Source: Thermoproteus uzoniensis 768-20 (GTDB lineage: Archaea > Thermoproteota > Thermoprotei > Thermoproteales > Thermoproteaceae). Taken from it: a stretch of DNA of 64,000 bases. Shown here piece after piece: positions 24,994 through 27,587 of this stretch. The stretch lies in the NCBI RefSeq assembly GCF_000193375.1, contig NC_015315.1:1744622-1808621 (forward strand), in the 5' to 3' direction. Made by a program: the position numbers and the translations under genes. Position 1 is the first letter of the stretch. Each line of letters opens with the position of its first letter. A model generated the notes under the pieces. The model did no database searches and was not told where the DNA came from. It worked only from the letters and a program-made list of their open reading frames with translations.

Positions 24994-25992
24994 CTAGATC
25001 GGAACTATATAGCGCCTATCGCCTATCTCCACGTAGTACGCGACGCCGTCCCTATAGCCCGGGGCATCCATTATTCTCCGGCCCTCGACGTCTACGAACT
25101 CTCCGTTCTTCACCTCGCCCTTTACGCCCCTTCCGACCCTCTCTGTCTTGACTTCGGTGAATCGATGAAGCGGGATCCTCGCGCGGTTGCCGCTAGATAT
25201 ATCTACAACGTAGATGCCGTCGCGACCTACATCGAGGACTAGATAATAGCTGGATCCCCTCCTCAACACATCGCCATTCTTAACTGTTATTATATAAATT
25301 GTTGCTGTATAATGATATATATCTCTATCCTTTTTTCTCCCAATTTTCTTGTAGCTCTCCACATAGTCGCTGGGGGCGATCTCGTGTATTTTATGGGCTA
25401 TATGTCTCGCCAGCTTGGGCTCCGTGGTGGATATCTCTAGGGATCGGCCTACGCGCTCGGCCGATATCACCGAGCCGAGGTTTTTGCCCCTCACCTCGAA
25501 GGCTATGTGTTCCAGAATTGCCTCTAACTTGACAAAGTCGTTATCGTCGAGCTCGTCGGGGAATCCCCTTATCCTCACGAGGCCTCTCTCGGAGCCCCAG
25601 ATATTCCTCCTACAGTCCAGGCAAACGTCCAGAACCACGTCGGCGATGTAGTGGGCCGAGAACTCGCGCGGTTTTATGAGCTCGTGGGGCGACCCCACGC
25701 CCGATATTCTGTAGGCCACCTTGCCGTTGCCTATCTCTACGTCTACGGACAAGATCCTCCCGCTGACCTTCACGTTGTCTTTGAGCAGTCTCTCCAACAA
25801 CGCCTTCTCGCCCTCTCTGCCTGGCCTTATCCAGCGCCCTCTTATGTACAGCGCCCCGCAGTACTTACACTTCACAACGTTGAACTTCCTTATCTCGAGG
25901 ACGGGATGCCTCTCTAGGTAACAGCTCTCGCACATGCCCTCTATGAGCCTCTCCGCAGGTCGTCCGCAGATCGGGCATATGACAGTGGGCAC
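24994..25992 (-). CDS. NMD3-family zinc-binding protein
   Basis: Archaeal relative of NMD3, which in eukaryotes binds 60S subunits for nuclear export; archaeal versions probably act in large-subunit maturation or recycling. The N-terminus has paired Cys motifs (CPICG, CESCY, CKYCG, CLDC) for zinc. Then comes the conserved FSAHYIADVVLDVCLDCRR region, an eIF5A-like middle part and a beta-rich C-terminus. Length (332 aa) fits archaeal members. The start is GTG 25992, 12 bp downstream of the methyltransferase stop on the same strand, so they may share a transcript. Confidence 0.85.
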   Translation of the reverse strand: MPTVICPICGRPAERLIEGMCESCYLERHPVLEIRKFNVVKCKYCGALYIRGRWIRPGREGEKALLERLLKDNVKVSGRILSVDVEIGNGKVAYRISGVGSPHELIKPREFSAHYIADVVLDVCLDCRRNIWGSERGLVRIRGFPDELDDNDFVKLEAILEHIAFEVRGKNLGSVISAERVGRSLEISTTEPKLARHIAHKIHEIAPSDYVESYKKIGRKKDRDIYHYTATIYIITVKNGDVLRRGSSYYLVLDVGRDGIYVVDISSGNRARIPLHRFTEVKTERVGRGVKGEVKNGEFVDVEGRRIMDAPGYRDGVAYYVEIGDRRYIVPI

Positions 25993-26004: not shown

Positions 26005-26943
26005 TCACCGCAATATATCTTTAATGTACTCTGCGATGGCCCGAGCCAACGGGGGCGGGACGGCCTCGCCCACCTGGTTGAATTGGCTGTCCTTGGGCCC
26101 GAAGAACACGTGGTGGTCGGGGAAGCCCATGAGCCTTGCCTGCTCTCTAACAGTGAGAAGCCTATTCTCCTCCGGATGTACAAAACGCCTACTGCCCATC
26201 ACGGTAGGAGCCAGCTCGTCCCACTTAAGCCTCACGAAGTTCCCGTATATCCCTGAGGCTCCTTTGAACTTCATCAAGGCATCTCCGGGCCTTAACGCGG
26301 CTATCCTCTCGGCCTTCGACGAACTTAGAGTCACGGTCTCATGGTTCGGAAAGCCAGAATCCACAGGCGGTAGCCCGGCCAAGGCCTGTCTAACCGTCGG
26401 CGGCTTGCTCCGCCTAGGCGTTATCTTGACGTTGGAGATAAACACCCTCTTTCTATGGCTCGGCACTCCGTGGTTTTCTGCAAGTAGTATATTGAAGTAT
26501 ATCTCGTCGAACCCCACTCTCTTGAACTCCCTCTCTAGGGCCTCCCTCAGCGGACCTTGGGCTATGCCAGGCACGTTCTCTAACACGAATATCCTAGGCT
26601 GCAGCTCGCCGACGAGCCTTATGAAGTGCAAGGTCAATTGGCCGAGGGGATCGGTGTAGAGCCTGTCCAGCGGATTCTCCATACGCCTCGGGTTAGTGGC
26701 CGTGAATGGCTCGCAGGGCGATCCGCCAATCACGACGTCTACCTTGCCGACGTGCCTCTCCACCTCCCTATAGCTAATCGAGGCGACGTCCTCCTCGAGG
26801 ACGACTGCGCGGGGGAAGTTATAGCTGTATGTCCTGGCCGCGTTGGCGTCGATCTCCACCCCCAGCACCACTCTGAAACCGGCGTCTGCGAATCCCCTTG
26901 AAAACCCCCCGCCGCCGGCGAATAGATCTACGACGTTGTACAC
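26005..26943 (-). CDS. DNA (cytosine-5)-methyltransferase
   Basis: Transfers methyl from S-adenosylmethionine to C5 of cytosine in DNA. Motif I is VDLFAGGGGFSRGF at residues 5-18, motif IV GGSPCEPF with catalytic Cys77, motif VI LENVPG at 121-126, motif VIII SHRKRVFIS, and motif X FNQVGEAVPPPLARA near the C-terminus. The target-recognition region between VIII and IX is short, and the protein (312 aa) is small but complete. It is divergent, 44 bp apart, from a PD-(D/E)XK-like protein, which suggests restriction-modification. m5C deaminates quickly at high temperature, so a C5 enzyme in such an organism is notable. Confidence 0.92.
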   Translation of the reverse strand: MYNVVDLFAGGGGFSRGFADAGFRVVLGVEIDANAARTYSYNFPRAVVLEEDVASISYREVERHVGKVDVVIGGSPCEPFTATNPRRMENPLDRLYTDPLGQLTLHFIRLVGELQPRIFVLENVPGIAQGPLREALEREFKRVGFDEIYFNILLAENHGVPSHRKRVFISNVKITPRRSKPPTVRQALAGLPPVDSGFPNHETVTLSSSKAERIAALRPGDALMKFKGASGIYGNFVRLKWDELAPTVMGSRRFVHPEENRLLTVREQARLMGFPDHHVFFGPKDSQFNQVGEAVPPPLARAIAEYIKDILR

Positions 26944-26987
26944 TGAGGACCATCGTAACCTTTTTATATCAATATCCCTAGTTGGGT

Positions 26988-27587
26988 ATGTCGATACGCA
27001 GATTGAGGTTGAGGCTTAGCGACGCCTTGGGGTTGCCTAAGCCGGACGAGCTGAGCTCCAAATATGGCAGAGCCTTTGAGCGCGCCGTTTTGATTCTGTT
27101 GAAGGCCAAGGACGCCGTGTCCGCTCTGAGGACCTTCATAGAGAGCTACGGCGAGCCGCACTCCGGAGCCTTCAACAAGATAAGGATGTTGATCCCCTGG
27201 GCCAAGAAGGTTAAGGAAGTCGCCGAGGCGCCGCCCGTGATTACCAAGATAGGCGACGCCATATTAACTGCCCAAGCCGATTTCTTGATTTCCTACGAGG
27301 ACGGGAAGAAAGAGATCGTGGAGCTTAAGAGCCATATAATAAAGAGGGATGAGTGGAAGATAAAGGCCGAGTGGTCTTTTGCCGCCAAGGTCATGAGGAT
27401 GTTGTACCGCCGCGCTGGGTACGACTATCCGATAAGGCTTATCTACTTCACCGAGGATAGGGGCGGCGTCAAGGTGGAGCAAGAGGTGTATCTATATCCC
27501 AACGACGAGAAGGACGACGAGCACTTGATCAAGGCTTTGGAGGAGCGCATAAACAAGATCAGACAAGTACAGAGCGAGGAGCATTAG
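26988..27587 (+). CDS. Putative PD-(D/E)XK nuclease-like protein beside the C5 methyltransferase
   Basis: I do not recognise a named family. The 199-aa protein shows a nuclease-like pattern: helix SSKYGRAFERAV with Glu31, then ADFLISYEDGKKEIVELKS with Asp98, Glu112 and Lys114 in the D-x(13)-E-x-K arrangement of PD-(D/E)XK enzymes. Strand IRLIYFTEDRGGVKV follows. A DNA-cleaving role is inferred from this and from the divergent methyltransferase 44 bp away. CTTTTTATATC lies about 23 nt before ATG 26988. A methylation-dependent or non-nuclease role remains possible. Confidence 0.5.
   Translation: MSIRRLRLRLSDALGLPKPDELSSKYGRAFERAVLILLKAKDAVSALRTFIESYGEPHSGAFNKIRMLIPWAKKVKEVAEAPPVITKIGDAILTAQADFLISYEDGKKEIVELKSHIIKRDEWKIKAEWSFAAKVMRMLYRRAGYDYPIRLIYFTEDRGGVKVEQEVYLYPNDEKDDEHLIKALEERINKIRQVQSEEH

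Follow-up and report, generated by a model that had tools for sequence, protein, structure and literature searches.

In a stretch of 64,000 nucleotides from the genome of Thermoproteus uzoniensis 768-20 (referred to as the window), a gene encoding a C5-cytosine DNA methyltransferase (MTase) is found divergent to one encoding a 199-residue protein, which raises the question of whether the two products function together and, if so, at which DNA site. The data discussed below point to a type II restriction-modification (R-M) system at GCWGC, composed of a persistent MTase of the HG2 group and a PD-(D/E)XK protein that would represent a new restriction-enzyme family, a reading that we consider reasonably probable.

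The MTase gene (26005-26943, minus strand) has a GTG start codon and encodes 312 residues (PF00145, E 6.5e-47; PADLOC MTase_II, E 2.8e-77) with motif I (DLFAGGGG) and the sequences SPCEPF, LENV and FNQVGEAVPP; the description of the protein as a complete C5 MTase in an earlier note on this DNA, based on the PC, ENV and FNQVGEAVPP motifs, is borne out. A clear best match to this MTase is found in 58 of 61 relatives from the same class, usually as a single copy (52-88% identity), and other orders of the phylum harbor the same gene at 50-60% identity. The identity is 51% to the copy in a genome that we take to be that of S. acidocaldarius DSM 639, the enzyme of which is presumably M.SuaII of the HG2 group. 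As judged from its sequence, the window MTase belongs with this persistent m5C group. Members of HG2 are present in 99 of 100 Crenarchaeota, the group is classed as an orphan m5C MTase, two members have been demonstrated to modify C(m5C)WGG, and the epigenetic role is described as unknown, with the suggestion that the enzyme may be silenced (PMC10609329). In S. acidocaldarius, m5C was undetectable by dot blot (PMC5809426). The MTase is, beyond what was recognized in the earlier note, a phylum-wide persistent "orphan" and not a methylase acquired as part of an R-M system.

In other orders, HG2 commonly adjoins the gene for TFE-alpha (PF02002), often together with those for Trm56 (PF01994) and DUF2122 (PF09895, named "RecB-family nuclease"), i.e., in the clusters at L213, L215, L216, L218, L219, L222, L223 and L225, an arrangement which suggests that its transcription is coupled to that of core information-processing genes. 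In Thermoproteaceae the gene has been relocated, away from this TFE-alpha neighborhood. An NMD3-family gene (24994-25992) is located 12 bp downstream of the MTase gene in the window and evolves much faster than its neighbors (31-39% identity between genera at the listed loci).

The partner gene (26988-27587, plus strand) starts 44 bp from the start of the MTase gene, in agreement with the divergent 199-residue reading frame described previously. Homologues are found in all 17 Thermoproteus and Pyrobaculum genomes searched (all six of Thermoproteus and eleven of the Pyrobaculum group), in each case divergent to HG2, i.e., neither the gene nor the arrangement is due to chance, and in these two genera HG2 is not an orphan. 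Homologues away from MTases, which the earlier note had named as an argument against a restriction enzyme, were not found: the nuclease family is absent from the sister genus (g2), from other families and from a 250-genome sample of the phylum. A search for mobile copies in viral contigs, phages and plasmids yielded no homologue either, and a mobile origin of the nuclease was rejected on this basis.

No adjacency other than that of the MTase and nuclease genes is preserved throughout the 17 genomes; the pair is intact despite a rearranged left flank in two of them (G012 and G017), and its right neighbor differs between Thermoproteus and Pyrobaculum. The two genera form separate groups in the trees of both proteins, and MTase and nuclease diverge at the same rate (mean p-distance 0.277 and 0.286, respectively). 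Within Thermoproteus, dN of the nuclease is 0.06-0.12 at a dS that is about 1 or saturated, which indicates strong purifying selection. The two genes are thus linked and co-inherited, which is a feature of type II R-M systems, and a functional linkage between MTase and nuclease is likely. In one genome (G003; L074 6511-7224, minus strand), a 237-residue reading frame with an N-terminal hydrophobic stretch is located between the two genes, where the pair remains. The Pyrobaculum loci also contain a conserved reading frame of ~97 residues, convergent to the nuclease gene (L085 6057-6344, minus strand) and absent from the Thermoproteus locus; it has no PADLOC match in L085 and its homologue in L082 has no Pfam match.

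Between the two start codons of the window pair there is a TATA-like element, TTTTTATAT (26961-26969). In 16 of the 17 genomes the start of such an element lies 25-28 bp ahead of the nuclease gene; in the 15 of 17 that have a single spacer of 44-60 bp, the range given is 25-32 bp. Judged by its position, the element is probably a shared bidirectional core promoter, and the spacer length together with the TATA position appears compatible with leaderless transcripts. In the Pyrobaculum spacers (e.g., L078, L076 and L084), the TATA element is immediately preceded, when read toward the nuclease gene, by a conserved GAGTAA-like stretch that may be a BRE or an operator.

The target site is suggested by the composition of the genomes. 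Avoidance of recognition sites fits long-lasting type II restriction (PMC4687349, PMC6286503) and is typical of long-lived type II systems, but not universal (PMC4687349). The depletion of GCWGC first surfaced where this sequence was used as a control motif in a Dcm-Vsr test, and a systematic 5-mer scan followed. Among the 512 5-mer classes, GCAGC/GCTGC shows the strongest depletion in six pair-bearing genomes, with an observed/expected ratio of 0.20-0.63 (mean 0.33; next class 0.73), as compared to 0.87-1.02 (mean 0.97) in four relatives that lack the nuclease, including the sister genus. The depletion affects every codon phase as well as non-coding DNA and so acts on DNA; the representation of GCSGC is normal. 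The four Thermoproteus and Pyrobaculum viruses, when pooled, contain 17 GCWGC sites where 65.7 are expected (SIRV1, the control virus, is too AT-rich to be informative). Loss of the site by deamination of m5C was rejected as the cause since the products, GTWGC and GCWAC, are not enriched, which indicates avoidance. The sequence CCWGG was also considered as the restricted site and rejected, as its ratio in the six pair-bearing genomes (0.80-1.06) is like that in relatives. The pattern in hosts and viruses is that which would be expected of long-lasting type II restriction, and the strong avoidance of GC(A/T)GC on both sides suggests that the pair is probably an unrecognized antiviral restriction system.

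Genome-wide counts reveal avoidance in 15 of the 17 pair-bearing genomes; as the pair and the avoidance both almost coincide with a single clade, they do not represent independent data. The two exceptions (G015, pattern/control 1059/1047; G017, 4339/3943) have the pair, with its active-site residues intact, and branch early within Pyrobaculum in the tree of the nuclease. When these two genomes were examined for another avoided site, in samples of 14-15 kb that are too small for the purpose, GGCC (0.38) and GAWTC (0.35) were low in G015. The G017 nuclease is found on a long branch (1.03), as if the protein had been relaxed or retargeted.

These exceptions can be compared to the MTase region that putatively recognizes the target, residues 179-250 (26194-26409, minus strand; limits estimated from the spacing of motifs VIII and IX), which differs in the pair-bearing HG2 members; apart from the two exceptions, it is GCWGC and not CCWGG that is avoided in pair-bearing genomes. 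Residues P219 and W241 are found in all aligned pair-bearing MTases and are rare or absent elsewhere; E258, just outside the region, is also found in all of them and is rare elsewhere. At position 224 (codon 26272-26274, minus strand), all 14 aligned MTases from genomes that avoid GCWGC have Met, whereas G015 has Ser and G017 has Val; this association was noticed post hoc and is based on about two changes. That M224 is lost in both pair-bearing genomes without GCWGC avoidance, and in no other aligned one, argues for attribution of this site to the pair, and m5C systems at GCWGC do occur in hyperthermophiles, namely ApeKI/M.ApeKI (PMC8557920). Against the attribution, the characterized HG2 members modify CCWGG and the predicted fold of the partner is nearest to that of RecB/Cas4 exonucleases.

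Strong avoidance of GCWGC is also seen in two genomes that do not harbor the nuclease, G049 (2/18.8 locally, 648/2774 genome-wide) and G055 (10/27 locally; L066 and L109 are the loci of G049 and G055), which means that another GCWGC system or other causes exist. The main rival explanation is that the avoidance is the footprint of ApeKI-like m5C R-M systems that have come and gone in the family, in which case the window pair would consist of an orphan MTase and an adjacent nuclease with some other function. Several Pyrobaculum genomes indeed contain accessory modules (L104 4264-7407, L107 3064-6228 and L108 3434-7248) composed of a C5 MTase of 444-477 residues, REase_II (PDLC03411; E 5e-116 and 2e-98 in L104 and L107, where the PADLOC match was tested) and an HhH-GPD glycosylase, which from their sequences are restriction systems that include their own candidate enzyme for T:G repair. 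M.ApeKI, a 56-kDa m5C MTase for GCWGC (PMC8557920), is near these accessory MTases in size, and avoidance can persist after the loss of a system (PMC4687349). However, the presence of accessory systems does not track avoidance, and they were rejected as its cause: genomes that yielded no accessory C5 MTase (G000, G003 and G007) avoid the site as strongly or more so, and avoidance is strongest in two genomes without accessory systems (G000 and G003). Lost systems would furthermore require many independent losses with the footprint retained, and the Thermoproteus viruses avoid GCWGC now, where no accessory system was found in Thermoproteus. Two genomes (G000 and G002) harbor a single C5 MTase each and no match to any of the four other DNA-MTase families searched (PF01555, PF02384, PF07669 and PF02086), and among the families searched there is no second DNA methyltransferase in the genome of the window. 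With these data, the explanation by lost systems is considered rather unlikely.

A different question is whether the partner is a restriction enzyme at all. A family search with the single sequence gave weak matches below the cut-offs (PDDEXK_1, E 0.0035), no restriction-endonuclease profile in Pfam, NCBIfam or PADLOC scored above its cut-off, two homologues weakly matched RE_TdeIII (best E 0.023), and a search of PDB sequences with the nuclease profile returned chance matches only, so that the label "unrecognized" given to the protein earlier was apt. The AlphaFold2 model (built with nine homologues; pLDDT 89.7, pTM 0.84) has a predicted PD-(D/E)XK fold that is near certainly of the RecB/Cas4 type, and not an unrelated one. 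In this model, the predicted catalytic Glu31 (27078-27080, plus strand) is located in a helix (residues 21-40), Asp98 (27279-27281, plus strand), a predicted metal ligand, just before a strand (99-103), and the predicted (D/E)XK motif, Glu112-x-Lys114 (27321-27329, plus strand), within ELKSH on a strand (108-118). These residues are found where the earlier note placed them and are invariant across 16 aligned homologues. The suggestion of an undescribed restriction endonuclease family is thus favored by the fold, the invariant residues, the linkage to an MTase and the avoidance of one palindrome in hosts and viruses, and is weakened by the lack of GCWGC avoidance in two genomes that carry the pair.

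The predicted RecB/Cas4-like fold differs from the usual restriction-enzyme folds. The top PDB matches in Foldseek are Cas4-family ACE1 (E 1e-6), AddB, Cas4 SSO0001, AdnA, EXO5, RecE and MGME1, while restriction enzymes are weak matches (PfoI, E 0.016; HincII, E 0.013); among viral models, 151 match the predicted fold at E<=1e-3 and, where named, are mostly PD-(D/E)XK, RecB and exonuclease 8 (Exo8) proteins. This ranking is consistent with an exonuclease of the RecB/Cas4 type that serves recombination or CRISPR-related processing, the adjacency to HG2 then being inherited synteny, as is the finding that the nuclease gene is inherited vertically and is as conserved as that of the MTase. Such a role is nevertheless improbable, because it leaves unexplained the avoidance of GCWGC, and because of all adjacencies only that of MTase and nuclease was retained in 17/17 genomes, across a short and conserved divergent promoter; furthermore, the window nuclease contains no cysteines, i.e., none of the four that hold the Fe-S cluster of Cas4.

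A test for Vsr-like repair, in which the representation of CCWGG, CTWGG and CTAG was compared with an E. coli control, revealed no matching signature, where the power for CCWGG is limited as the Markov test displayed no over-representation of this motif in E. coli either (0.78). The most doubtful of the explanations considered is that the nuclease is a repair endonuclease for the T:G mismatches that arise when m5C deaminates, equivalent to Vsr without being homologous to it, with both enzymes acting at CCWGG. In its favor, HG2 elsewhere is a CCWGG MTase like Dcm (PMC10609329), dcm and vsr overlap in E. coli, the accessory Pyrobaculum m5C MTases adjoin an HhH-GPD glycosylase and m5C deaminates fast at high temperature. 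Against it, CTWGG/CCWAG is at 0.98-1.25 in pair-bearing genomes (vs 0.75 in E. coli), CCWGG is about equal whether or not a genome has the nuclease, NucS is found in nearly all relatives and the avoidance of GCWGC in hosts and viruses would be unexplained.

The preferred reading is that of a vertically inherited type II R-M system of Thermoproteus and Pyrobaculum, for which we infer the nuclease activity, the target site, the methylated base and the shared use of the promoter. Here, the local HG2 would have come to recognize G(m5C)WGC in place of C(m5C)WGG, where the outer base pair alone differs, and modification by HG2 would protect the chromosome. The PD-(D/E)XK protein, the product of the divergent gene under the same short promoter region, would cut unmodified GCWGC in incoming DNA. 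In terms of evolution, a phylum-wide orphan MTase may have become an R-M system in one family through the change from CCWGG to GCWGC and recruitment of a RecB/Cas4-type PD-(D/E)XK protein, which would constitute a new restriction-enzyme family, and may since have been kept vertically as a core gene, shaping host and virus genomes; for this scenario belief and doubt are evenly balanced.

In the published survey, CCWGG methylation is assigned to HG2 throughout Crenarchaeota, and here one family of hyperthermophiles bears signs of live m5C restriction, with a nuclease family that is recognized by no profile library. If correct, the reading would provide a direct example of how restriction systems and orphan methyltransferases interconvert, yield a thermostable candidate enzyme for GCWGC, and allow the tolerance of m5C in such organisms to be put to the test.

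A comparison with known systems places the pair between several of them. Like the HG2 orphans (M.SuaII and M.Asp7I; PMC10609329), the MTase is a single-copy crenarchaeal core gene that can be aligned over its full length, including the recognition region; unlike these, the Thermoproteus/Pyrobaculum form has a nuclease partner, carries the clade-specific P219, W241 and M224, and probably targets GCWGC and not CCWGG. With ApeKI/M.ApeKI of Aeropyrum pernix (PMC8557920) the pair would share m5C R-M at GCWGC in a hyperthermophilic crenarchaeon, but M.ApeKI is about 56 kDa, as compared to the 312 residues of the window MTase. With E. coli dcm-vsr it has in common a persistent m5C MTase that adjoins a nuclease gene, but no Vsr is found among the 50 PDB fold matches listed and a Vsr-like compositional signature is absent. 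The RecB/Cas4 clade (Cas4, AddB, EXO5, MGME1 and RecE) shares the predicted core fold and the order of catalytic residues; in contrast to these proteins, the window nuclease has no significant sequence similarity to solved structures, is devoid of cysteines, and is a stand-alone protein linked to a DNA methyltransferase.
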